Shown here: positions 8,127 through 50,916 of the stretch, piece by piece
How positions within the stretch are numbered: position 1 is the first letter of the stretch
Layout: the number at the start of each line of letters is the position of its first letter
NCBI GenBank assembly: GCA_020057405.1
Contig: JAGVFW010000003.1
Coordinates: forward strand, 62,001 to 126,000
Direction of reading: 5' to 3'
DNA: 64,000 nt
From: an archaeon
GTDB lineage: Archaea; Micrarchaeota; Micrarchaeia; Norongarragalinales; UBA97
Notes under the pieces: model-generated
The model's database searches: none
What the model saw: the letters and a program-made list of their open reading frames with translations, nothing else
Told to the model about the DNA's origin: nothing
Made by a program: the position numbers and the translations under genes

Positions 8127-11069
8127 TTAGCGTGGGACGATGACGTTGTGCATTCCAAGCGCCCAGGCGGGCGAGCCGGGTTGCAGGGTGTAGTCGTCGG
8201 CACTCGGGTTGGTGAAGAGCGGGTCGGCGATTACCGAGTCGGCGTCATAGCCAAACGCGTTCCACTGGGCCCAGGTGTAATGGCCGTTGGCTCCGCCGTG
8301 CCATGATGCTTCGGGATCGAGAACCGACACAGTGCCGCCGCCGTTCCAAATCAGGTTCTTGCTAAAGCGCGTGTTTGCAGTGCCGACAATGTGGCGCACC
8401 CAATAGAGGTTGGCAGTCGGGTGTCCCGGGTAGTAGACGATGTTGCGCTCAAAGCGGTTGTTTTCGTAGACCGTATTGTTCGCCATTGTCGCGGGGTTGG
8501 GCGCGTTTACCAAAAGCGGGTAATGCGAATAGTATTTTGCGGTGTCGAATCCCCAGCCGGTCATGTTTTGCAGTTCATTCCACATGCCAATGTAGTAAAC
8601 GAAAATGCTCGGCGGGCCCCACTCGCCTTGTGCGTACATGCCGTCGTAGATTCCCTCGACACCGATGTTGTCGTGGATGTAGTTGTCGCGGCCGGCGTGG
8701 ATTTGCGCGAACCCTGAGCCCGTCCTTGCGACGACGTTGTCGTTGATTTCAAATTCGCTTGAAAAGTCATCCGGGTAGATGCCCCAGCTGAAGCCCGGGT
8801 ATTGATAGGTGTTGGTTTGGCTCTTGTACTCGTAGCCGCCCAGGTCGTGGATGAAATTGTGGCGGACGGTGGTGTTGCGGTAGAGCCAGCTGCGGGAGAG
8901 AAATCCGATGCCGCCGGTGTCCTGCGTCTCGCGGTTGAGGTTGTAGACGTGGTTCCACTCGATTACGTTGTCGTTGCCCTGGCCGCCTATTGCAATTCTA
9001 GGCGTGTCGCGTATGGTGTTGTTGGCAATCACGATGCCGACTGCGCGGTAACTGATGGCGGCAGTTGCCTTGTTCAGCGTGCCGGTGTTGTAAATCGAGT
9101 TTCTCAATATACGGTAGTTGCCGGGGGTGAGGGTCTTGAAGTGGTACGCCTCTTGCGAACGGTCCTGGCCAGGCAGCCATGTGCCCCAACCGCTTTGCAA
9201 GTCTATGGCTGAACCGCCAGTGTCGTGAATAGTGTTGTCGGTAAACTCAAGGTTGTAGAAGTTAGTGTCCTGGCTCGGGTCGGAATAGGCTTCGATGCCC
9301 TTGCCGGTCAGGAAGGGCCCGCCGTTTGGCCGCGAGTTTTCGTTGTTGGCAATGTTGCGAATTTCGCTGTTGCGGATTGTGATGTCGTGGGCGTTCTTGA
9401 TTGTGAAGCCCTGGGCGCGGAATTCTTCTAGGGTGAGGCCGTTGAATTCGAGGTGGTGCGTGCCGGTGTCGACGAAAATACCCAGCGTTGTTGACGGCAC
9501 TGAGGCGCGGTCGTTTGTTGAATAAGCCGACGGCGGATAGACGTAGAGCTTTTGTACAGTGCTGTCGTAGAACCACTCACCTGGAACGTCAAGCGCTGCT
9601 CGCACGTGCTGGATGTAGAAGCGGTTGCCTTTGAGGATCGTGTAAGATGCGCCGGTGCCCCACTCAAGCAACCTAAGCGAGCCGTTTGAAGAGTCAACGC
9701 GCTCTAGCTTGCCAATGCCGTTCCAGTAGTTGGGGCCAGTGTAAATCACAAGCTGGCTGTTCTGCATTTGCCACGAGCTGGAGTCAAAAGCGTTTGGCTG
9801 GAACAGCACGAGCTTGTCGCTGATGTTGGTTGAGGCGCTTGCTAGCACGAAAGAGCCTGCCCACGGGTCTGTTTGACCGAAGTTTGGAGTAACGGCGTTT
9901 GGATAGCGCGCGGGTTCGAGAAGTTTTCCGTTCCAGAAGAGAACTAGCTGGCCGTTGGTGAAAACTGACGGTGCGACTGTAGCCTCGTAAACGTTCGATT
10001 GAGAGGACGGACTGAATGCAGTGATTGAATTGCTTCCGCGAAGGATTGGCGTTTCGCCGTAGTAGTTGCGCCAAATTATGCGGTAGCCGCTCTTGCCCGA
10101 GTCAGTTGCGGCGTAGAGGCTCAGTTGGCTTGCGAGATTGTAGGCGCCGCCTCGCAGAAATATGACGACGTTTTTCGTCATTCCTGAGGTGATGTTGGTG
10201 CGGACGGTAGTTTGGGCTTTTGAGAGTGTTAGGAAGGGTGCGGTTAGGGTGCCGGGGTTGGTGTCGCTGCCGTTTGTTGCAACGTAGAAGAATACGGTTG
10301 AGTCGCAGGCATCCCCAACGCCATTGCCGTCGGCGTCCCATTGGTTTGCGTTGGAGGTTGTGGGGCAGTTGTCGAGTGAGTCGGGGATGCCGTCGCCATC
10401 GGAATCGGGCAAGGGCGTTGGAGTTGGCGTTGGGGAACCATTCGGGGTTGGTGTCGGAGAACCGTTTGGAGTTGGCGATGGCGTGGGAGTGCCGCTTGGT
10501 GTCGGGGTGGGCGAACCCTGCGGTCCTGGAGTCGGCGTTGCCGTCGGTAGAGGAGTCGGCGAGGGCCTTGGCGTGACTATGGGTTCGGTTGAGTTAACGC
10601 AATTGGTTGCATCGACAATTTGCGCACCGCTGCACGCTGCGACGCACTCGTTAAAGTAAGTCCGACCGTCATTGCCGCAGACCGGCGTGTAGACGCTTGG
10701 GCAAGCGCAGGGGTCGGGCGTAGGCGTTGCCGTCGGCACCGGAGTCGGCTGGACTGAAGGCATTGGCGTGGGCGATGGGCTGGGCGTGACGATTGGCGTT
10801 GAGAACATATCGACTCCACGCAAGCCGAATAAGCTTTCGCCCAGCTCGCGAATTTTGGCCGCAACTTTCTCTTGCGCGCCGACCACGTGCTCAGCAGCGG
10901 TGACGACGGGAGTGTATTCGGCTTGCGTTGGCGGGGACGAGACGACGAAAAACGAGCCAGCCATTACAACGTAAGCGAGAACGGCGATTAGGAAAACGAT
11001 TGTAAACGCGGATGAAACGCCTTCGCCGAGCTTGCCTTTGATTGCAGCCAGCTCTTCCCCCAAGTTCAC
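8127..11069 (-). CDS. Secreted multi-domain surface protein: Kazal, TSP3 and right-handed beta-helix
   Basis: A 980-residue protein, anchored or exported through one hydrophobic segment (residues ~20-45). Then come a Kazal-like domain (CACPSVYTPVCGNDGRTY), a long Pro/Thr-rich linker and a thrombospondin type-3 calcium loop (DSDGDGIPDSLDNCP...GDACD). The C-terminal ~650 residues have repeated N-x-I and D-N-x-I turns of a right-handed parallel beta-helix, as in carbohydrate-active or adhesive proteins. A close paralogue lies at 20933-23704: the first ~330 residues and the promoter are nearly the same, the helix domains differ. The start is GTG behind a TATA box (TTCTTAAATTCC, 11087-11098). Substrate unknown. 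Confidence 0.85.
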   Translation of the reverse strand: MNLGEELAAIKGKLGEGVSSAFTIVFLIAVLAYVVMAGSFFVVSSPPTQAEYTPVVTAAEHVVGAQEKVAAKIRELGESLFGLRGVDMFSTPIVTPSPSPTPMPSVQPTPVPTATPTPDPCACPSVYTPVCGNDGRTYFNECVAACSGAQIVDATNCVNSTEPIVTPRPSPTPLPTATPTPGPQGSPTPTPSGTPTPSPTPNGSPTPTPNGSPTPTPTPLPDSDGDGIPDSLDNCPTTSNANQWDADGNGVGDACDSTVFFYVATNGSDTNPGTLTAPFLTLSKAQTTVRTNITSGMTKNVVIFLRGGAYNLASQLSLYAATDSGKSGYRIIWRNYYGETPILRGSNSITAFSPSSQSNVYEATVAPSVFTNGQLVLFWNGKLLEPARYPNAVTPNFGQTDPWAGSFVLASASTNISDKLVLFQPNAFDSSSWQMQNSQLVIYTGPNYWNGIGKLERVDSSNGSLRLLEWGTGASYTILKGNRFYIQHVRAALDVPGEWFYDSTVQKLYVYPPSAYSTNDRASVPSTTLGIFVDTGTHHLEFNGLTLEEFRAQGFTIKNAHDITIRNSEIRNIANNENSRPNGGPFLTGKGIEAYSDPSQDTNFYNLEFTDNTIHDTGGSAIDLQSGWGTWLPGQDRSQEAYHFKTLTPGNYRILRNSIYNTGTLNKATAAISYRAVGIVIANNTIRDTPRIAIGGQGNDNVIEWNHVYNLNRETQDTGGIGFLSRSWLYRNTTVRHNFIHDLGGYEYKSQTNTYQYPGFSWGIYPDDFSSEFEINDNVVARTGSGFAQIHAGRDNYIHDNIGVEGIYDGMYAQGEWGPPSIFVYYIGMWNELQNMTGWGFDTAKYYSHYPLLVNAPNPATMANNTVYENNRFERNIVYYPGHPTANLYWVRHIVGTANTRFSKNLIWNGGGTVSVLDPEASWHGGANGHYTWAQWNAFGYDADSVIADPLFTNPSADDYTLQPGSPAWALGMHNVIVPR

Positions 11070-11112
11070 CTAGGAGTAACGCAAGCGGAATTTAAGAAAT
11101 GAATGGCCAGCA

Positions 11113-17013: not shown

Positions 17014-17250
17014 ATGGTAGGTGGTTTTGTGGAGAATGTGAGTGTTGACAAGTCGGGCCGCTTCGTTATTCCAAAGAAGGTGCGAGCCGAGTTTGACACC
17101 AACGTGTTTTCAGTAGAGGTGGAGAAAGACGCCATTGTCTTGCGGCCGAAGAAGGGCCTTAGGGGACTTTTTGGCACGTTTCCGGACCTCGACATGAAGG
17201 AATTCGAGAAATGGAAGAGGGAGGAAGTAGAACGTGAGAATTCTTCTTGA
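17014..17250 (+). CDS. SpoVT/AbrB-type antitoxin (VapB-like)
   Basis: A 78-residue swapped-hairpin DNA-binding protein (VSVDKSGRFVIPKKVR, then VFSVEVEKDAIVLRPKKG) with a charged C-terminal tail that would wrap the toxin. It pairs with the PIN toxin whose start codon lies inside its last 17 nt. Translation may begin at the ATG (17014) or at the GTG at 17029, which has GGTGG just upstream. An AT-rich stretch (TTTATTAATG) supplies a promoter. Confidence 0.87.
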   Translation: MVGGFVENVSVDKSGRFVIPKKVRAEFDTNVFSVEVEKDAIVLRPKKGLRGLFGTFPDLDMKEFEKWKREEVERENSS

Positions 17251-17608
17251 CGCTTGGGCCATCCTTGAACTCATCAAGGGCAGCGACAAGGGCGCAAAAG
17301 TGGAAGAAATCGTGCGCGATAGCACGCTTGCCTGCACCACTTCCCTAAATCTCTACGAAGCGAAATACAAGCTTACCGGCCGGTACGGCGAGGCCAGAAT
17401 CGACAAAATGCTCGATGAAGTCAGGGCAACAACCCAAATCCTCCCAATCACCGAAGAAGCCGCGCTTGCGGCAGCGGAAGTAAAGCTGCAGCAAAAGCAG
17501 CTAAGCGCAGTTGACTGCAACGCTTATGCTGTCGCCCGGCTCCACAAACTAGAATTCGTTACAGGCGACAAGGGTTTTACCGGACTCGAAGGCGTCGTGC
17601 TGGTCTAA
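17234..17608 (+). CDS. PIN domain toxin (VapC-like RNase)
   Basis: A 124-residue PIN nuclease with acidic residues in the expected places: LLDAWA (Asp, strand 1), NLYEAK (Glu), SAVDCNAYA (Asp) and VTGDKGF (Asp). It probably cleaves tRNA or rRNA when free of its antitoxin. The GTG start overlaps the antitoxin gene by 17 nt. The stop codon lies inside the first copy of the 17-bp array repeat. The last nine codons plus the repeat recur at 23796-23834, where the rest of the toxin gene is missing. Confidence 0.87.
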   Translation: MRILLDAWAILELIKGSDKGAKVEEIVRDSTLACTTSLNLYEAKYKLTGRYGEARIDKMLDEVRATTQILPITEEAALAAAEVKLQQKQLSAVDCNAYAVARLHKLEFVTGDKGFTGLEGVVLV

Positions 17609-17644
17609 GTGCAGGGGGAGCGACTCTAGCTTCTTACTAGAGTC
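17604..17644 (+). repeat. Array repeat copy 1 with hairpin
   Basis: Core TCTAAGTGCAGGGGGAG at 17604-17620, overlapping the vapC stop codon. It is followed by a perfect 8-bp hairpin, GACTCTAG (17622-17629) and CTAGAGTC (17637-17644). The left flank matches copy 4 over the 3' end of vapC. See the array finding. Confidence 0.85.
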
Positions 17645-17710
17645 TGAAGCACCGGGCAGTTAACCCCACAAAACGTTGTTTTTTATGCATGCCAAACAAT
17701 CGCGCCCCTC

Positions 17711-17755
17711 TAGGCGTAGTCACTTAGAACGATTAATTTAAATAGGCGTAGTCAC
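17711..17755 (+). promoter_or_regulatory. fic (17767) promoter bracketed by 13-bp direct repeats
   Basis: TAGGCGTAGTCAC occurs at 17711-17723 and again at 17743-17755, exactly 32 bp apart (three helical turns). The TATA box TTAATTTAAAT (about 17732-17742) sits between the two copies. The start codon follows 11 bp after the second copy. A repressor bound to both would cover the promoter. Confidence 0.65.
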
Positions 17756-17766
17756 CTATTACTACT

Positions 17767-18705
17767 ATGCACGTTGAACTCCGCAAGGCTGGCGAGGGTC
17801 GTAAGTTCTACTTGGCACACTCATACCGGAGAGGCAAGAAAATAGTCAAGCTCCGCATCTACCTTGGCGCGAACCTTTCCCCCGATGAAATAGTGGAGAA
17901 AAAACACCTTGCCGAAAGCACGCTTCGCTATCGTGTCGATGCCAGCGCTGCCATGAGCGACCCGTTTGAAACCGCGCTTTCCAAGGGTGAGCTCGAGGAG
18001 CTTAAGACGCTTGAGGCCAAGGGAGAGCTCGCCATCAAGCACTTGTCCGAGGAGGACTGGCGCAACTTTACCGAAGCGTTCACTTACGACACGAATGCCA
18101 TCGAAGGCTCCACCATACTCCGGGAAGAAGTAGGGGACATCCTCGAGCGCGGGAAGTGGCCGGACAAGCCGAAGGGAGACATATCCGAAACGTATGGCGT
18201 GGCGAAAGCCATCGAACACGTAAGAAAAACCAAGGAGCACATCTCGCTGCCGCTGCTTTTAGAATTGCACCGCATAGTTTTCCTGAACTCTAAGCCGTAC
18301 GCGGGAAAGTTCAGGGCGCGCGGAGTGGAAGTAGTCGTGGCGGACGCATACGGGAATATCCTGCATCGCGGCGCCCCTTCGACGCAAGTGCGAAAGCTCC
18401 TAAAGCGGCTGGTGGAATGGTACGGGAAGAACAAAAAGCGCTACCCGCCACTAGTCCTCGCCGCCGTAGTGCACAACCAGTTCGAGAACATCCACCCGTT
18501 TCAGGACGGCAACGGGCGGGTCGGCAGGCTCTTGCTCAATAATATCCTGCTCAAACACGGGCTGCCGCCGCTCAACATCGAACTGCGCAACAGGCACGAA
18601 TACTACGCGGCGTTGCAGGCGTACGAGCACAAGCATGACATCCGGCCCACAATCCAGCTCATGCTCAAGGAATACCGTGCTCTCAAGAAACTCCTCAAGA
18701 GGTGA
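17767..18705 (+). CDS. Fic family protein (class II) with N-terminal accessory domain
   Basis: A 312-residue Fic protein. Residues 1-60 form an accessory domain (FYLAHSYRRGKKIVKLRIYLG) of a kind also seen at the start of IS1634-type transposases and of archaeal Fic proteins. The autoinhibitory motif TNAIEGS and the catalytic HPFQDGNGRVGRLL follow. It shares architecture with the Fic protein at 18875-19816 but is on the opposite strand and diverged. The promoter has two 13-bp direct repeats. The inverse motif GGTGACTAC straddles its stop codon, with GTAGTCACC 13 bp later. Confidence 0.9.
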   Translation: MHVELRKAGEGRKFYLAHSYRRGKKIVKLRIYLGANLSPDEIVEKKHLAESTLRYRVDASAAMSDPFETALSKGELEELKTLEAKGELAIKHLSEEDWRNFTEAFTYDTNAIEGSTILREEVGDILERGKWPDKPKGDISETYGVAKAIEHVRKTKEHISLPLLLELHRIVFLNSKPYAGKFRARGVEVVVADAYGNILHRGAPSTQVRKLLKRLVEWYGKNKKRYPPLVLAAVVHNQFENIHPFQDGNGRVGRLLLNNILLKHGLPPLNIELRNRHEYYAALQAYEHKHDIRPTIQLMLKEYRALKKLLKR

Positions 18706-18731
18706 CTACACCGCACAATTTTGTAGTCACC
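18701..18731. repeat. Inverted repeat GGTGACTAC / GTAGTCACC at the 3' end of fic (17767)
   Basis: Perfect 9-bp arms at 18701-18709 and 18723-18731 with a 13-bp spacer. The left arm overlaps the stop codon. The same GTAGTCAC core forms the direct repeats in this gene's promoter, so the gene is bracketed by one motif on both sides. It may act as a terminator hairpin or an operator. Confidence 0.7.
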
Positions 18732-18741
18732 CAAAACAGCG

Positions 18742-18798
18742 TGCTTCTAGCCCTAGTCTAAGTGCAGGGGGAGTAAGCTTAGACCTGGACTAAGTGCA
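18742..18798 (+). repeat. Array repeat copy 2
   Basis: Core TCTAAGTGCAGGGGGAG at 18757-18773, preceded by the left arm GCTTCTAG. The core is flanked by GTCTAAG and CTTAGAC in inverted orientation. It is followed by TAGACCTGGACTAAGTGCA, which looks like a second, truncated copy. The 58-bp direct repeat begins exactly there. It lies about 37 bp after the fic stop codon. Confidence 0.85.
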
Positions 18799-18855
18799 TA
18801 CCGAAACGAAAGCACGATAATGCCGAATGTGGCAAAGCCAAATAAAAAGTGTCTC
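18798..18855 (+). repeat. 58-bp direct repeat, left copy
   Basis: Begins ATACCGAAACGAAAGCAC and ends AAAAAGTGTCTC. It matches the copy at 19921-19978 at 53 of 58 positions by eye. It sits 19 bp beyond the 3' end of the minus-strand fic gene (18875) and contains a small TGCC-GAATGT-GGCA dyad. Confidence 0.9.
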
Positions 18856-18874
18856 GAGTTTGAGCGGACTTGGG

Positions 18875-19816
18875 CTATGCGCGCTTGTCGTGCCCGTTTT
18901 CGGCTTGTTCTTCGGGTTTCAGGATCGTGTACTGCTCAAGCAATTGCTGGGAAAGAAAGCTCGCGAAAGGCTTTTGGTTTCCCTTGTCCGCTTCTTCGAT
19001 CGCGTTGTAGTATTGTTCCTTGTTTCTCGTTTCAATGATTGCCGGCGGGAATCGATTCCGCATGAGGATCCAGTTCATCAACAGCCTTGACGTGCGACCG
19101 TTGCCATCGGTGAAGGGATGGATTTGAACGAACCCATTGTGCAACCATGATGCCAATTCTACAGGATGAAGCGCGCGCTTATTTTTTTGATATTCCTTGA
19201 AGAGTTCGCCCATCAACCGCGGTACGTCCTTTGCTGCCGGAGGCTTCCAGTCCGAACCGCCGATTCCGACTTCACTGTCGCGGTAATCGCCTTGAATCCT
19301 GCACGTCGTGTTTTTCGTGATCTCAAACTGTATTTTGCACGCGAATTCCTTGTTCACCTGTCCCTTGTACGACTTGACGAATTCCCACGCATCCTTGCCG
19401 TTCAACACCTCGATGACGTCGTTCGTCTTTACGCCTTGCGGCGCGATTCCTTCGGAAAGAATGAGCGCGGTTTGCCGCAAGGTGAGCGGATTGCCTTCGA
19501 TCGCGTTCGTGTTGTACGTAAAGCGCACGAGAAAATCGCTCGGCACCATGCCCTCCGGAAAACCCTTGAACGCGACTACGGCTGAATGCAAGTCCTCGAG
19601 CCGATCTTCCGCTTCCTGCGACAGCCACTTCGCCTCGTAAGGCTTCGGCGCCTTTCGTTCAAGCTCTGAAAAATACTTTTGCAACTCATCGTGGCCTGGC
19701 ACTTTCCTCCCCAAAAACACCCGAACTTTGCTAACCTTGGTGGGAGAAAGGCGCACGCTCTTGACGAGGTAGAAATAGTCGTGCTTCCCGTGCCTCTGCT
19801 TCTCGATAAACGCCAT
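18875..19816 (-). CDS. Fic family protein (class II) with N-terminal accessory domain
   Basis: A 313-residue Fic protein. The same N-terminal accessory domain as the protein at 17767 is present (YFYLVKSVRLSPTKVSKVRV). TNAIEGNPLTLRQT is the inhibitory helix and HPFTDGNGRTSRLL the catalytic motif. The gene lies between two 58-bp direct repeats. Its promoter has three copies of a TGTAGCCATA-like motif around the TATA box. Targets are unknown; the accessory-region location suggests a toxin or defence function. Confidence 0.9.
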   Translation of the reverse strand: MAFIEKQRHGKHDYFYLVKSVRLSPTKVSKVRVFLGRKVPGHDELQKYFSELERKAPKPYEAKWLSQEAEDRLEDLHSAVVAFKGFPEGMVPSDFLVRFTYNTNAIEGNPLTLRQTALILSEGIAPQGVKTNDVIEVLNGKDAWEFVKSYKGQVNKEFACKIQFEITKNTTCRIQGDYRDSEVGIGGSDWKPPAAKDVPRLMGELFKEYQKNKRALHPVELASWLHNGFVQIHPFTDGNGRTSRLLMNWILMRNRFPPAIIETRNKEQYYNAIEEADKGNQKPFASFLSQQLLEQYTILKPEEQAENGHDKRA

Positions 19817-19818
19817 AA

Positions 19819-19897
19819 TATGGCTACATCTTCAAACTATTTAAATATTGTGGTCATAATGCCTACTTTTACGCGCCTAATATAAATTGTAGCCATA
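19819..19897 (-). promoter_or_regulatory. fic (18875) promoter with three TATGGCTACA-type operators
   Basis: On the plus strand TATGGCTACA lies at 19819-19828, TGTGGTCATA at 19849-19858 and TGTAGCCATA at 19888-19897. The first and third are perfect inverted 10-mers; the middle one has two mismatches. The minus-strand TATA box AATATTTAAATAG (about 19837-19849) lies between the first and second sites. Confidence 0.6.
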
Positions 19898-19920
19898 CGG
19901 ATTAATCTCGAGGGGAATTT

Positions 19921-19978
19921 ATACCGAAACGAAAGCACAGAAATGCCGAATGTGGCAAAGTCGAATAAAAAGTGTCTC
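19921..19978 (+). repeat. 58-bp direct repeat, right copy
   Basis: Second copy of the repeat at 18798-18855 (53 of 58 identical by eye). It ends 9 bp from the 3' end of the minus-strand exporter gene. Both copies therefore lie just downstream of a minus-strand gene. Confidence 0.9.
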
Positions 19979-19987
19979 TGCTTTTGG

Positions 19988-20731
19988 TTAAATCAAGTGA
20001 AGACCCGAAGCCAAAGCAACTAACCCCGAAAGCAAGACCAAAACCAATGAAATTTTCCTAAATAATTCGTCATCGACCTTGTGGACGATTGCCATGCCTG
20101 CAAGAGAACCTACGACCATTGCCGGAAAAAGCATAATCGTATAATTAATCACCTCGTTCGTAAGCAGGCCGTTCACAAAATAGAACGGAATCGTGAGAAG
20201 AAAGAGAACTGAAAAATAGGCGACTAAATCGGCGCGAAAATCATCTTTTTTTGTCCCTTGGTTTGCTAGAAAGAGCACTACTGGCGGACCGCTCATGGTG
20301 GTGCTGCCGTTAAGGACTCCACTTGCAAAGCCCGTTATCGCAAATCCCGTCAGCTTATTCTTTATTTCACGCCTGAAGCCAACGATCAACGCCAGGGCGG
20401 TTAAGGCGACTATTGTTCCTGCGAAAATTTTTAGCGTTGCAACGTCCAAATACAAGAGAATCCAAGTTCCTATCGGAATGCCCGCCAACCCGGCAACCAG
20501 CAATGGAAGTATGCGTTTGAAGCTGACGTTACGCCAGACCTGCACTAACACGATGAAATTTATCGCAGTGTTAAGGAGGAGAACTATTGGTATTGCCGTC
20601 TTTGGAGACAAGAAAAGTACGAGGAGTGGAACCGATACAAGGGCAAAACCAAATCCCGTCAAACCATAAGTCAAAGCAGCCAGGAGGATTATTGCAAACG
20701 CAAAAACAATCGGGATAGAAACTTCAAACAA
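19988..20731 (-). CDS. TauE/SafE family membrane transporter
   Basis: A 247-residue protein with about eight hydrophobic helices. The N-terminal repeat has LTYGLTGFGFALVSVPLL, and the second half has the related GFASGVLNGSTTMSGPPVVLFL, giving the two-fold repeat of the TauE/SafE (DUF81) family. Members export sulfite, sulfoacetate or related anions; the substrate here is unknown. The gene lies within the accessory array with a 58-bp repeat at its 3' end. The start codon lies about 160 bp from array copy 3. Confidence 0.85.
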   Translation of the reverse strand: MFEVSIPIVFAFAIILLAALTYGLTGFGFALVSVPLLVLFLSPKTAIPIVLLLNTAINFIVLVQVWRNVSFKRILPLLVAGLAGIPIGTWILLYLDVATLKIFAGTIVALTALALIVGFRREIKNKLTGFAITGFASGVLNGSTTMSGPPVVLFLANQGTKKDDFRADLVAYFSVLFLLTIPFYFVNGLLTNEVINYTIMLFPAMVVGSLAGMAIVHKVDDELFRKISLVLVLLSGLVALASGLHLI

Positions 20732-20881
20732 GGTAATTCAACTCTGCCAATTTACATTATCGCTCAGTTTGTTTAAATAGTGCCTAATGCCCTTTCGTTG
20801 ATCACCTAAAAAATGCTGAATTAATTAACGGCCAAATTCTACATTTCTGTGTAACATGAGGGCGAAAAACTTCGGTATACC

Positions 20882-20925
20882 TTTAGACCAGGTCTAAGTG
20901 CAGGGGGAGTGCTTTGAACCCACGG
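20882..20925 (+). repeat. Array repeat copy 3
   Basis: Core TCTAAGTGCAGGGGGAG at 20893-20909, preceded by a perfect palindrome TTAGACC-A-GGTCTAA (20883-20897) that overlaps the core. The right flank TGCTTTGAACCCAC, read on the minus strand, resembles a tRNA T-loop followed by an acceptor strand. It lies 23 bp beyond the 3' end of the beta-helix gene. Confidence 0.85.
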
Positions 20926-20932
20926 AATAGGG

Positions 20933-23704
20933 CTACCCGCGGGGGAAGGGGAAGTCGGCCATGAGGCCTACGGGAGTGGTGTTGAAGTTGGTGAAGCCGG
21001 TTGCCAGGACTGCCCCGTTTTGGACGAAGTAGTCGCCTGCGGCGGGATTCCTGAACTGGGGGTCGGCGGTGACTGAATTGACGTCAAAGCCGTATTGCGA
21101 CTGCCATTGGGCGAGAGGGATTTTTGGCGTTCCTACTTGAATCGTATACCTCCCATCAGGCCGGTAAAACGAGTTGTAATCCGAAGCGCTTACTTTGTCG
21201 GATTGCCAGTCTGCAAACTTGAACATGGTGGGATCGAGCGCGTTCGAGGTGGAGGCATAGAAAATATTGCGAGTAATGTTCAGGTGGTGGTTGGGCATGC
21301 CCAGATACGCTTGGAAGAAAGCAAGCTCTCGCGGCTCGTCGGTTGCTACAATGTTGTTGGTGAGCGTGTTGTAATCGCCTTTGATTAAGAAAGTATAGGG
21401 ATTGGTGCGGATGTTGTAAACGAGGTTGTTGCTGACCATATTGTATCCGGACCCATCGTCAAGGTACATGCCAACGGCGAATGGATTGTTGACTTGAGTG
21501 GTCGCGGTAATGTCGTGAATGACATTGTTGGTGATGAGATTGTCCTTGCCGGAACCCCACAAATAGATTCCGCCGCCGTCATGCGTGTCCCGCATCACGT
21601 CCGAAACGTCGTTAAAGGCGATGGTGCCGTTTCTGGCGTAGACGTAATCGCGGTAGTTTTCCTGAGTTGCGTCCGGAATGAAAAGTTTAGTGTAGTTGAG
21701 AGTAAAGCCGAGGTAGAGGATTCCAGCGTAATTTCCGCGGTGGATTTTGTTGAAGGACACGTTGGTCGAGCTGATGCGCGCGAGAAGCATTCCCGCGGCC
21801 CTCGAATAGCGCCGGCCGAAGTCGTAAAAGCGGTTGTTGACAATGCGGTTAAAGCCACTCACGTCGCCATTGCCCGGATAAGGGCCGCCCAATTTGATTG
21901 CATCAGCGCCAAGCTCGTTTAGGTAATTGCCGTAAATGTCAAGGCCAGTAACGTAGAAGCCGCCCGTAATTCCATGAGTCAGTTGCTTGAATTCATTGAA
22001 GCGCACGCGGATGTTGTCGGCGTAGGCCACATGCAATCCCGTGGGCGTGCTTAGCGGCCCGTTGGAATTGGCTGTCTTAAAGCCGTTGCCCATTTCGAGA
22101 GTCAGGCCGCGCAGTTCGATGTTCGACGTTTTTACCGAGGGCGAAGAGCCGGAGACCTGGATTATCCGCTCGATTGTGGGCGCCAGGATTTCCTGCGAGT
22201 CAATCGGCGCGTTTCGCGGCCAGTAGTAAGTCAGGCCGGTCGTCTCGTCGTAGAAAAATTCTCCGGGAGAGTCAAGAAAGTCGAGTGAATTGATGAGGGC
22301 AAACCGGTTGTTGAGTCTTATGACGTAGCTCGTGTTGGCTGACAGGTTGATTGTGCGGGTGGAGAAGTTGACGTAAGTGATGGGAGTTATGTCAACGGCC
22401 CAGTCGTAAACGTAAGAGCCGCTTCCGCCGGGGAAGATGTAGGCCTTGGCACTGGAGTAGGAAAACGTGTCGGGAAGCGCGCCGGACGGGTAGACGAAGC
22501 TCGTGAAGTTGTTGTCGCCATAGCCGGCAACTTTCAGGTAACCTGAATTGGGCGTGCGCGCGGGCACCGCCTCGACGCCATTTTCGTAAAGCGAGTAAAT
22601 ATTGGGGCCTATGTTTGCAACGTAGATGTTGCCTGAATAAAGCGTCCAGCCGGTCGCGGCCTTGGATGCAATCAACCTTGGCTTCTCGCCGTAGTAGTTG
22701 CGCCAAATAACGCGATAGCCGTTCTTTCCGGAATCCGGGGGCTGGAGCAAAAGCCCGCTCGTAAGGTAGTACTTCCCACCTCGAAGAAAGACAACCGCAT
22801 TAGAGGTCATTCCGGAAGTGATGTTGGTGCGGATTGTAGTCTGGGCTTTTGAGAGTGTTAGGAATGGTGCGGTTAGTGTGCCGGGGTTGTTGTCATTGCC
22901 GTTTGTTGCAACGTAGAAGAAGACTGTCGAGTCGCAGGCGTCGCCCACGCCATTCTCGTCCGCATCCCATTGGTTGGCGTTCGCCACTGACGGACAATTG
23001 TCAACTGAATCGAGCACGCCGTCGTCGTCTGAGTCGGGCGGGGGCGTCGGAGTCGGCGTGGGAGTGGGAACGCAGGAGGGGCACGGTGTTGGCGTGGGTG
23101 TAGGCGAGCCGCTTGGCGTGGGGCTCGGCGTTGGGCTGCTGTTTGGAGTTGGCGTTGGGCTTCCTTGCGGGCCCGGAGTTGGGGTCGGCGATGATGTTGG
23201 CCGGGGGGTGACTATAGGGAGAGTAGAGTTCACGCAGTGCTCGGCAGGCGCGATTGATATTCCTTCGCAGCTGGCGACACACACGTTAAAGTAAGTCCTG
23301 CCGTCAGAGCCGCAGACCGGCGTGTAAACGCTTGGGCAAGCGCATGGGTCGGGCGTAGGTGTTGCCGTCGGCACCGGAATCGGCTGGACTGAAGGCATTG
23401 GCGTGGGCGTTGGGCTGGGCGTCACGATTGGCGTTGAAAATAAGTCGAGTCCCCGCAAGCCGAACAGGTTTTTGCCTAGCTCGCGAATTTTGGTGACGAT
23501 TTTCATCTGCGCATCCACCATCTGCTGCGCAACAGAAACAATAGGATGATACTCCGATTGCGTAGGCGGGGAAGAAACGATGAAGAAAGAACCTGCGAGT
23601 GTAATGTAAGCCAAAACCGCGATTAGAAAAACGATTGTAAAGGCCGACGCCGCACTTTCGCCTAACCTACCGCGCAGCGCCTCCAGCTCTTCCCAAAAAT
23701 CCAC
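20933..23704 (-). CDS. Secreted multi-domain surface protein: Kazal, TSP3 and right-handed beta-helix (paralogue)
   Basis: A 923-residue paralogue of the protein at 8127-11069. It has an N-terminal hydrophobic segment (TIVFLIAVLAYITLAGSFF), a Kazal-like domain (CACPSVYTPVCGSDGRTY), a Pro/Thr-rich linker, a TSP3 loop (DDDGVLDSVDNCPS) and a C-terminal parallel beta-helix. The first ~350 residues closely match the paralogue up to RNYYGEKP. After that the helix domain is strongly diverged. The start is GTG behind a TATA box of the same sequence (TTCTTAAATTCC). It is the only large structural gene in the accessory array. Confidence 0.85.
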   Translation of the reverse strand: MDFWEELEALRGRLGESAASAFTIVFLIAVLAYITLAGSFFIVSSPPTQSEYHPIVSVAQQMVDAQMKIVTKIRELGKNLFGLRGLDLFSTPIVTPSPTPTPMPSVQPIPVPTATPTPDPCACPSVYTPVCGSDGRTYFNVCVASCEGISIAPAEHCVNSTLPIVTPRPTSSPTPTPGPQGSPTPTPNSSPTPSPTPSGSPTPTPTPCPSCVPTPTPTPTPPPDSDDDGVLDSVDNCPSVANANQWDADENGVGDACDSTVFFYVATNGNDNNPGTLTAPFLTLSKAQTTIRTNITSGMTSNAVVFLRGGKYYLTSGLLLQPPDSGKNGYRVIWRNYYGEKPRLIASKAATGWTLYSGNIYVANIGPNIYSLYENGVEAVPARTPNSGYLKVAGYGDNNFTSFVYPSGALPDTFSYSSAKAYIFPGGSGSYVYDWAVDITPITYVNFSTRTINLSANTSYVIRLNNRFALINSLDFLDSPGEFFYDETTGLTYYWPRNAPIDSQEILAPTIERIIQVSGSSPSVKTSNIELRGLTLEMGNGFKTANSNGPLSTPTGLHVAYADNIRVRFNEFKQLTHGITGGFYVTGLDIYGNYLNELGADAIKLGGPYPGNGDVSGFNRIVNNRFYDFGRRYSRAAGMLLARISSTNVSFNKIHRGNYAGILYLGFTLNYTKLFIPDATQENYRDYVYARNGTIAFNDVSDVMRDTHDGGGIYLWGSGKDNLITNNVIHDITATTQVNNPFAVGMYLDDGSGYNMVSNNLVYNIRTNPYTFLIKGDYNTLTNNIVATDEPRELAFFQAYLGMPNHHLNITRNIFYASTSNALDPTMFKFADWQSDKVSASDYNSFYRPDGRYTIQVGTPKIPLAQWQSQYGFDVNSVTADPQFRNPAAGDYFVQNGAVLATGFTNFNTTPVGLMADFPFPRG

Positions 23705-23795
23705 GCTAGGCTAACGCCAAGGGAATTTAAGAACAGAACGGCTCTCTGCTGTCGAAACACTAATGGAAAAGAAAAAAAGCGCATAGCTAACGGTG

Positions 23796-23822
23796 GAACT
23801 CGAAGGCATCGTGCTGGTCTAA
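23796..23822 (+). pseudogene. Remnant of a vapC 3' end
   Basis: Codes for ELEGIVLV and a stop, against GLEGVVLV and a stop at the true end of the PIN toxin gene (17608). The nucleotide match continues without a break into array repeat copy 4, exactly as the toxin gene continues into copy 1. No toxin coding sequence precedes it. The rest of a second toxin gene was probably lost by recombination or deletion. Confidence 0.75.
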
Positions 23823-23879
23823 GTGCAGGGGGAGTACGCTGAGACGTCGTCTAGAAGCGGACTTTGCGAGACACAATTG
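23818..23879 (+). repeat. Array repeat copy 4
   Basis: Core TCTAAGTGCAGGGGGAG at 23818-23834. The left flank matches copy 1 (vapC end). The right flank (CGCTGAGACG, GTCTAGAAG, GGACTTTGCGAGACACAATTG) matches copy 5. The copy is thus a hybrid of the two, as expected from recombination at the core. Confidence 0.88.
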
Positions 23880-23915
23880 ATTCGTTGATTAATATAGTCC
23901 TAAAATCAATTATTC

Positions 23916-24707
23916 TTGACAGAGGGAATCAACTTGATTTTGCGTCCAAGAACTTTAAAGTCAATGGCTGAACAACTAGCCCAATTGCCCCCTCAAAGAC
24001 GGAAAGTAGTGGTTTTAGTCGGTAGACACCTAAATGAAGGGTCAGTAAACTTAGCAAACAGGTGTCATGAATCTTGGGGAAAAAAAGGCGCGGTCACCAT
24101 CCAACTTCCAGTGGACTGGACTCCAGAAGGTTTTTGGCATAGTGCGATGCAACGAAATCTCACTGCTGAAGAAGTAGAGAATGAAGCGAAAGCTATTCCT
24201 TCAGATGAGGCTATTTTAGACTTTCTCTTCAAAAGAGGATTTCGAATTCCGGTTCTAAATATCCACGGCGCTGGACACGAGGCGCGCGATATAACTAATT
24301 CTTCTGCGGAAACTGCCGAGAATAGGGAAAAAATCGAGACTGAACGGACTCCGACAACAAGCATAACCACAGGTAATAAAACGAGAATTTTCGAGCACAA
24401 ACTCATTCGCCATCACTATGGTAATATTGAACATCCTAACGAAATTTTGATAGAAATATATTATGGCGGATCTAAAAGAAATACTAAATCTCTAGAATAT
24501 GCGGTAGGTTTGGATCCGCATTCGAGACTCGCAGTTAACAATTCTCCGAGTTATATTGCAAAAAGATACTTGCGCGGCATCGTTATCAACCGCGGTTCAC
24601 TTGAGCGCCTTCACAAGGACGTGACTCCGAAAATAGAAGAACTGATTGAACACCTATCAAAAACCGGTCTAAAAGCAAGGCTTGGAAAAAGAGACTATAT
24701 TCGCTGA
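23916..24707 (+). CDS. Uncharacterised protein
   Basis: Up to 263 residues; no family recognised. A hydrophobic strand KVVVLVGRHLNEG near residue 30 and VLNIHGAGHE near residue 115 hint at an alpha/beta hydrolase-type fold with a conserved His, and RYLRGIVINRGSLERLHK near the C-terminus is charged. A middle section (residues 128-155) is Thr/Glu-rich and probably disordered. The sequence is clearly more AT-rich than its neighbours, suggesting acquisition. Starts are uncertain: TTG 23916 (near-leaderless behind TTAATATA), TTG 23934 (after GAGGGA) or ATG 23962. GAGACACAATTG upstream and AATTGTGTCTC right after the stop bracket the gene. Confidence 0.7.
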   Translation: MTEGINLILRPRTLKSMAEQLAQLPPQRRKVVVLVGRHLNEGSVNLANRCHESWGKKGAVTIQLPVDWTPEGFWHSAMQRNLTAEEVENEAKAIPSDEAILDFLFKRGFRIPVLNIHGAGHEARDITNSSAETAENREKIETERTPTTSITTGNKTRIFEHKLIRHHYGNIEHPNEILIEIYYGGSKRNTKSLEYAVGLDPHSRLAVNNSPSYIAKRYLRGIVINRGSLERLHKDVTPKIEELIEHLSKTGLKARLGKRDYIR

Positions 24708-24718
24708 AATTGTGTCTC
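24708..24718. repeat. AATTGTGTCTC at the 3' end of the unknown gene
   Basis: Begins at the base after the TGA stop. It is the exact inverse of GAGACACAATT at 23868-23878 in front of the same gene, so the gene is enclosed by an inverted 11-mer. Confidence 0.7.
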
Positions 24719-24751
24719 TGGATATGAAAACAAGTCGTTGGCGACAAGGTC

Positions 24752-24834
24752 TGCTTCTAGACCTGGACTAAGTGCAGGGGGAGTGCGCTTAGACGCGGTC
24801 TAGAAGTGGACTTTTCGAGACACAATTGTGTCTC
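24752..24834 (+). repeat. Array repeat copy 5, most complete copy, with nested inverted repeats
   Basis: The core is GACTAAGTGCAGGGGGAG (24766-24783). Outer arms CTTCTAGAC and GTCTAGAAG are perfect 9-bp inverses. Inner arms CTAAG and CTTAG flank a 15-nt centre, TGCAGGGGGAGTGCG. The spacers are 5 nt on each side (CTGGA, ACGCG), so the site is symmetric over 53 bp. The unit continues into GGACTTTTCGAGACACAATTG, shared with copy 4. It lies 44 bp beyond the end of the unknown gene. Confidence 0.88.
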
Positions 24835-24845
24835 AATCTATAAGT
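24817..24845 (+). promoter_or_regulatory. Palindromic operator and TATA box of the ParB-like gene
   Basis: GAGACACAATTGTGTCTC (24817-24834) is a perfect 18-bp palindrome. It directly precedes the TATA element CTATAAG (24838-24844), about 25 bp before the ATG. Half-sites of the same sequence flank the upstream unknown gene, so one regulator may act on both. Confidence 0.65.
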
Positions 24846-24868
24846 AGTCTTGTTTCACAAGTGATAGT

Positions 24869-25204
24869 ATGCGAATATCCTTTCGGGCTTTTGAACACCG
24901 TTATCCTGGCACCTATGGGACGAGCATGCTTTCTGCCAACGAACTGAGAGAAGCGAAATCGCTGAGGACATTCATAACTCGCAAAAAGTACGAAGATGCT
25001 ACTCGAGGAATTCCAAAAGGAAATCCAAAAATCGTTCGCGTCTTGGGTGAGATTTTTATCATCGACGGCCATCATCGAAGTAGGTTTGCCGTAGATCGCG
25101 GGGAAGGAATCACGGTAGAGCATTTCGAAACTGACTCTAAAGCACTCAAATTTATTTTGGATAAAAAGGCAAAAGCCAAGATTGGAGGAGTGGAAATTCG
25201 TTGA
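24869..25204 (+). CDS. ParB/sulfiredoxin-like nuclease-fold protein
   Basis: A 111-residue single-domain protein. FIIDGHHRSRFAVDRG carries the conserved D-G-H-H-R signature of the ParB N-terminal/sulfiredoxin-like superfamily. It has no HTH or C-terminal partner domain, so a chromosome-partition role is unlikely. Stand-alone members occur in mobile elements and as DNA-modifying or nuclease proteins. The gene forms the smallest unit of the accessory array (474 bp between copies 5 and 6), has a palindromic operator in front, and is AT-rich. Confidence 0.75.
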   Translation: MRISFRAFEHRYPGTYGTSMLSANELREAKSLRTFITRKKYEDATRGIPKGNPKIVRVLGEIFIIDGHHRSRFAVDRGEGITVEHFETDSKALKFILDKKAKAKIGGVEIR

Positions 25205-25227
25205 TGAACGAAAAACGAGGCAGTACA

Positions 25228-25275
25228 CTTCTAGATGTTGTCTAAGTGCAGGGGGAGCGATTTGAACTCTTGAAC
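25228..25275 (+). repeat. Array repeat copy 6, right end of the array
   Basis: Core TCTAAGTGCAGGGGGAG at 25241-25257. The left arm CACTTCTAGATG resembles those of copies 2 and 5. The right flank CGATTTGAACTCTTG, read on the minus strand, is GAGTTCAAATCG followed by CTCCCCCTGCA, resembling a degenerate tRNA T-arm and acceptor end. It lies 23 bp after the ParB-like gene and 28 bp before the 3' end of the DUF2090 gene, a core metabolic gene. Confidence 0.85.
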
Positions 25276-38590: not shown

Positions 38591-38720
38591 CGCCGGGAGG
38601 GAGATTCGAACTCCCGCACCCGTGAGGGAACTGGTTGGCCCGTGTTGAAAGCCGAAGGCCCATAAGTAGGGCGTTAGGCTATTTCGAGACCAGCGCGATA
38701 ACCACTCTGCCATCCCGGCC
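38591..38720 (-). tRNA. tRNA-Ser(CGA) with intron
   Basis: The acceptor stem starts GCCGGGA and ends TCCCGGC-G. The D-arm is present, as is the anticodon stem CTGGT/ACCAG with loop CTCGAAA (anticodon CGA). The long variable arm is typical of serine tRNA, and the T-arm is GGGAG-TTCGAAT-CTCCC. A 46-nt intron (38637-38682) interrupts it one base 3' of the anticodon, at 37/38. CCA is not encoded. Confidence 0.93.
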
Positions 38721-50790: not shown

Positions 50791-50916
50791 GGGCCCGTAG
50801 CTTAACCCGGACAGAGCGACTGGCTTCGAATGCCCCCAAGGCCGACTTCGACTTTAGGGAAAAAGCCGCCCGCAGGAGCAACCAGTAGGTTGTGGGTTCA
50901 AATCCCATCGGGCCCG
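50791..50916 (+). tRNA. tRNA-Arg(TCG) with intron
   Basis: The acceptor stem GGGCCCG/CGGGCCC is the same as in the tRNA-Arg 45 bp upstream. The anticodon stem is ACTGG/CCAGT with loop CTTCGAA (anticodon TCG). The T-arm is GTGGG-TTCAAAT-CCCAT. The intron runs 51 nt (50830-50880) at 37/38. Part of an open frame on the other strand crosses it but is not a gene. Confidence 0.92.

Follow-up and report, generated by a model that had tools for sequence, protein, structure and literature searches.

The question raised by this locus is what lies behind the nested inverted repeat at positions 24754-24806 of a 64,000-nucleotide stretch of Micrarchaeota DNA (hereafter, the window), which had been described as copy 5 of a repeated sequence and compared to recombination sites that act as folded single strands, such as attC. 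The letters and coordinates of the original prediction all check: over 53 bp in total, the outer arms CTTCTAGAC (at 24754) and GTCTAGAAG (at 24798) and the inner arms CTAAG (at 24768) and CTTAG (at 24788) are separated by the 5-nt spacers CTGGA and ACGCG and enclose the 15-nt centre TGCAGGGGGAGTGCG. The longer inner arms GTCTAAG/CTTAGAC are likewise kept in copy 2 (18756, exact) and copy 4 (23817, one mismatch). Copy 5 is better described as two mirror-image 24-nt arms, alike at 19 of 24 positions, around the 7-bp sequence GGGGGAG (24777-24783); read outward from this center, the left arm is TGCACTTAGTCCAGGTCTAGAAGC and the right arm is TGCGCTTAGACGCGGTCTAGAAGT. By itself, the nested geometry is not rare (3 loosely defined nested perfect repeats in the window, where a first-order Markov null predicts 1.2). 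What greatly exceeds chance is the number of copies: the 18-mer GTCTAAGTGCAGGGGGAG matches the window 6 times, always on the + strand, against 0.05 matches expected.

The copies share an 11-bp core, TGCAGGGGGAG. Intact tRNA-Leu genes with near-identical arms beside them, in this genome and in its relatives, have the same 11 bp at their 3′ end. In this genome, a tRNA with an intron on contig C16 (anticodon CAA, as read from the sequence; the contig ends about 200 bp past the core) ends in the core, as does tRNA-Leu(TAG) on C11. Relatives from the same order or class also carry the core, with arms of these kinds, directly next to tRNA-Leu genes; the anticodons there are TAG, CAA, CAG or AAG. The genome searched (1.22 Mb in 17 contigs, about 91% complete) contains 18 copies of the core, 17 of which are clustered or accompanied by element-end sequence; the copy on C2 is probably a chance occurrence. 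No intact tRNA is present at the array in the window sequence. Elsewhere in the window, two tRNA genes (50791-50916 on the + strand and 38591-38719 on the - strand) were found by Rfam and missed by ARAGORN with default settings; their length suggests that they carry introns.

Table. Features of the array in the window (window coordinates; LE, left end; RE, right end)
Feature	Coordinates	Strand	Details
PIN-domain (VapC-like) gene	17234..17608	+	PF01850, E 1.6e-15
Copy 1 of core	17610..17620	+	Upstream end is the vapC 3′ end; followed by a type-B left end
Cassette 1: Fic-domain protein	17621..18762	+	ORF 17767-18705 (+); PF02661, E 4e-20
Copy 2 of core	18763..18773	+	Type A on both sides
Cassette 2: Fic protein and TauE/SafE permease	18774..20898	+	Genes 18875-19816 (-) and 19988-20731 (-)
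Copy 3 of core	20899..20909	+	Type-A right end, then decayed tRNA-Leu T-arm TTTGAACCCACG
Interval with 923-aa beta-helix surface protein	20910..23823	+	Gene 20933-23704 (-); no left end
Copy 4 of core	23824..23834	+	Preceded by a vapC 3′ remnant; followed by a type-A left end
Cassette 3: 263-aa protein, unknown family	23835..24772	+	Gene 23916-24707 (+); matching type-A ends
RE of upstream cassette	24690..24776	+	Inverted arm 24749-24776, GTCTGCTTCTAGACCTGGACTAAGTGCA
Core TGCAGGGGGAG (copy 5), tRNA-Leu 3′ end	24773..24783	+	Reverse strand CTCCCCCTGCA; putative 7-bp overlap GGGGGAG, 24777-24783
LE of downstream cassette	24784..24855	+	Inverted arm 24784-24811; TATA-like leader ATCTATAAGTA
Cassette 4: 111-aa protein, no family match	24784..25246	+	Gene 24869-25204 (+), just 3′ of the LE leader
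Copy 6 of core, array end	25247..25257	+	Followed by decayed tRNA-Leu 3′ half CGATTTGAACTCTTGAAC

In the array delimited by these cores (Table), copy 5 is a junction at which the right end of the cassette 23835-24772 meets the left end of the cassette 24784-25246. The right end shares 90-92% identity with other right ends in this genome (at C1 and next to the C16 tRNA-Leu), and 84% over 76 bp with an element end at the tRNA-Leu of the relative G005. The left end and its leader are 82% identical over 88 bp to those of an integrase gene in G005, including GAGACACAATTGTGTCTCAATCTATAAGTA; the common leader is a probable promoter. Since the left end with its leader and the preceding right end both match the ends of the G005 element, the cassette 24784-25246 resembles an integrase element in which another gene has taken the place of the original. 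The interval 20910..23823 is not a clean cassette because it lacks a left end; part of its surface protein gene belongs to a pair of paralogous stretches of two large proteins (22678-23742 and 10046-11107, 73% nucleotide identity). The stop codon of vapC sits within GTCTAAG of copy 1, and the vapC 3′ end abuts the core both at 17584-17620 and at 23798-23834 (97% identity over 37 bp). Each gene of cassette 2 is preceded by a 58-bp repeat (18798-18855 and 19921-19978, 91% identity), which may mean that a leader was duplicated or that two cassettes fused. The cargo found comprises Fic, PIN, GNAT acetyltransferase, AAA/DUF4143, AHSA1 and TauE proteins; those of the Fic and AAA kinds are also recognised by candidate defence models of PADLOC.

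The arms fall into type A, CTTAGACC-N-GGTCTAGAAGC; type B, CTCTAG-N7-CTAGAGTC on the left, shortened on the right; and type C, CTTAANCTGAAAGC, seen in G011. Their distal box usually occupies positions 17-24 from the 7-bp center and lies about 10 nt further out in the right ends of G005. When the LE of each of 19 cassettes was compared with its own RE, the likeness was 0.550 against 0.454 for shuffled ends (p = 0.0001; p = 0.036 with shuffling within genomes), and when the RE was compared with the next LE across 24 junctions, it was 0.497 against 0.456 (p = 0.051; within genomes, p = 0.22). The ends of the same cassette are alike beyond shuffling and junction partners are not clearly so; by eye, unlike arm types are joined in 8 of the 24 junctions. 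The arms belong to the cassette ends, and the symmetry at copy 5 therefore arises because the terminal inverted repeats of head-to-tail neighbours meet there. A self-folding site would show the opposite pattern.

Comparable arrays are found in related genomes. One of these (L178) is a complete three-cassette array, running from the native flank through core-LE and two junctions to RE-core-tRNA-Leu(CAA). The Fic cassette of the window has counterparts of about 76% nucleotide identity in arrays of two other species (L076 and L048), and a cassette on C11 that we label RelE-like (a Pfam search gave no match) is matched at 74% identity by one in L076, where the left end agrees and the flanks differ. 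Models of the end sequences match 10 and 10 of the 29 genomes of the order; some of the matching genomes supplied training sequences, and G017 and G003 have a nearly identical contig stretch in common, probably through a binning error. Neither a circular form nor a pair of empty and occupied alleles was seen.

One integrase family sits directly inside these ends in relatives. In L074, a 5.7-kb element at tRNA-Leu(TAG) has its integrase gene immediately within the far copy of the core, and in L071, L072 and L073 the gene is located just inside a core copy. The closest homologues adjoin tRNA-Leu in other genomes of the phylum (L093, L106, L108, L110 and L112). A homologue at E <= 1e-40 was detected in 80 of 295 genomes, the genome of the window not being among them; the family is absent from this 91%-complete assembly. 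All six catalytic residues are conserved (R169, K195, H267, R270, W292 and Y302), with a K-to-H spacing of 72. The best solved relatives are XerA/XerC-like (PDB 4a8e, E 1.4e-14; 5hxy, E 5.6e-12), and with 89-100 bits the integrase does not reach the 220 bits required by the NCBIfam XerA model. Unlike XerA/XerC-like recombinases, the integrase bears an additional C-terminal zinc-ribbon-like cysteine tail (C-x-R-C ... C-x-x-C-G) and is present in several copies in some genomes. On G043:C1, three integrase genes with identical scores lie exactly 25,989 bp apart (341071, 367060 and 393049), either because a large element was triplicated in tandem or through an error of assembly.

Other sources of the enzyme were considered and rejected. 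The sole tyrosine recombinase of the assembly, on C17, is distant (29% identical to the matching integrase) and has no att or core nearby, and a serine recombinase is not encoded in the genome. A viral origin was dismissed because a close-relative scan of IMG/VR contigs yielded no relative of the integrase, and the five core-like matches there are all in chance contexts.

With considerable confidence, we interpret copy 5 as a composite recombination site (RE-core-LE) between two small, integrase-less, head-to-tail cassettes of a tRNA-targeting integrase system. At the level of sequence, this reading is carried by the copies themselves and follows from the identity of the core with the tRNA-Leu 3′ end beside the same arms at intact tRNA-Leu genes, from the integrases inside such ends or beside tRNA-Leu in relatives, from the left end and leader that the cassette after copy 5 has in common with the G005 integrase gene, and from the complete array of L178, the matching ends within cassettes and the similar Fic and RelE-type cassettes elsewhere (about 74-76% nucleotide identity). 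Against it count the lack of a matching integrase in the assembly, the lack of an intact tRNA at the array, cassettes with unlike ends such as 17621-18762 (type B on the left, type A on the right), and the negative result for circular forms and for paired empty and occupied alleles. Each cassette carries an inverted arm of about 24 nt at either end and terminates in the tRNA-Leu 3′ sequence, which reads TGCAGGGGGAG on this strand. Under the proposed mechanism, a XerA-like tyrosine integrase, probably supplied in trans and presumably active in this genome at present, would bind the mirror-image arms as double-stranded DNA and exchange strands within GGGGGAG, the likely overlap. The cassette would pass through a circle whose attP, RE-core-LE, is the same kind of sequence as the copy 5 junction; circles would enter either an existing junction between cassettes or the 3′ end of tRNA-Leu, and the tRNA would be restored at each insertion, allowing arrays to grow.

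Among the alternatives, transposons with terminal inverted repeats, mobilized by a casposon-like Cas1 or a DDE enzyme and duplicating their target, here the core, at tRNA-Leu 3′ ends, are very unlikely. Terminal inverted arms, direct repeats of the target and the use of tRNA-Leu, a known casposon target, are all seen, and terminal inverted repeats with target duplication at a tRNA fit casposons, but this pattern is also expected of paired integrase arms. The genome (91% complete) contains no match to Cas1 (PF01867), on which ground casposons were rejected, and integrase genes, not Cas1, lie just inside the ends in relatives. Slightly less credible still is the spread of dead tRNA-derived repeats through homologous recombination or segmental duplication with no dedicated enzyme. 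Such an origin would agree with the decayed tRNA-Leu T-arms flanking several copies (20899 and 25247) and with the absence of the matching integrase from this assembly, but not with the precise ends, the matching of ends within cassettes, the tRNA-anchored arrays of relatives, or the integrases at the same sites.

The least probable explanation is an integron-type attC, a site that folds as single-stranded DNA into a hairpin recombined by an IntI-like integrase. Copy 5 does fold strongly (-17.8 kcal/mol, z -5.9), arrays of single genes look cassette-like, and GTCTAAG/CTTAGAC is similar to the R boxes of integrons (RYYYAAC/GTTRRRY) with the last base changed. However, when each copy was folded as single-stranded DNA, the other five of the six window copies lacked the fold (z -0.98 to +0.90), and junctions with mixed arms are common. 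When the copy-5 structure was counted on 21 junctions, 55.8% of cells were paired compared to 52.9% in shuffles, and covarying pairs were not above shuffles; the 55.8% exceeds slid versions, yet any structure taken from one member does so. The integrases score 45-48 bits against a cut-off of 265 for integron integrases (TIGR02249), their K-to-H spacing is that of XerD and the Xer type and differs from that of IntI, and the core is a tRNA-Leu end. AttC-like folding was thus rejected on the grounds of folds, pair counts and arm mixing, its own stated test having failed because the arms show no conserved pairing. The original prediction is therefore supported in part: its reading of the copies as recombination sites is kept, the system being one in which a tyrosine recombinase moves gene cassettes, with a candidate enzyme in relatives, and its single-strand-folding mechanism is abandoned.

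The system is integron-like in arrangement, with a cassette array and a common recombination site, yet it is not an integron because both the IntI-specific domain and a conserved hairpin are absent. As in integron arrays, including archaeal ones (Ghaly et al. 2022, PMC9668308), short gene cassettes are separated by a common recombination site, many arrays lack an integrase (CALIN-like), and the cargo is toxin-antitoxin-like. Unlike in integrons (PMC9668308), there is no IntI domain or conserved single-strand fold, a tRNA-Leu anchor replaces attI, both cassette ends bear arms, and some left ends hold a promoter-like leader.

By sequence anatomy, the elements qualify as candidate tRNA-targeting tyrosine-integrase elements: a direct repeat of the tRNA 3′ end is found at both ends (tRNA-Leu plus a core copy in L074 and L178), and a tyrosine integrase lies inside the element near att in relatives, though not in the window cassettes or in this assembly. 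Archaeal elements of this kind have been reviewed by Badel et al. 2021 (PMC8371274), whose text does not mention Micrarchaeota or DPANN. Common to both are an integrase near the end, a tRNA 3′ target, restoration of the gene and possible tandem integration at one locus, whereas most units described here are integrase-less cassettes of 0.5-3 kb that hold a single gene, have strong inverted arms at their termini and form arrays. Tycheposons of Prochlorococcus, reported as 4-200 kb (PMC10872708), are also bordered by tRNA, employ a tyrosine recombinase and carry cargo, but here minimal cassettes are arrayed in an archaeal host. In the case of the tandem ssrA islands of Dehalococcoides and of cis-mobilizable elements and accretion (PMC3146451), direct repeats of an RNA-gene 3′ end similarly delimit the units, some of which lack an integration module; those islands differ in relying on a serine recombinase, a tmRNA gene and multi-gene integration modules. 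No description of such single-gene cassette arrays in Micrarchaeota, and no report on Micrarchaeota with integrases or tyrosine recombinases, was found in the literature searched, which omits most subscription journals.

A wider proposal, on which we consider the evidence evenly balanced, is that Micrarchaeota hold an independently evolved gene-cassette capture system functionally equal to integrons, in which single genes (Fic, PIN and RelE-like toxins, an acetyltransferase and others) would travel between species as circles with their own ends and leader and be stored at tRNA-Leu by a trans-acting XerA-like integrase. If so, DPANN archaea with tiny genomes would use a tRNA anchor to shuffle individual genes, of which many are toxin- or defence-like, and an ordinary tRNA-targeting integrase would have given rise to a second route to integron-like arrays. 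Software built to find integrons would overlook such arrays, since it depends on IntI and on attC folds. The enzyme and the sites are short enough for direct testing.

Two further loci in relatives are of note. A stretch of 5,847 bp is 99.98% identical between genomes of different families (L182 on G017:C53 and L183 on G003:C1), and is probably one contig binned twice. At L013 (4700-5530), cassette ends are nested and decayed, with 32 bp between two cores and inverted-looking arms, which suggests repeated insertion and decay at one junction.
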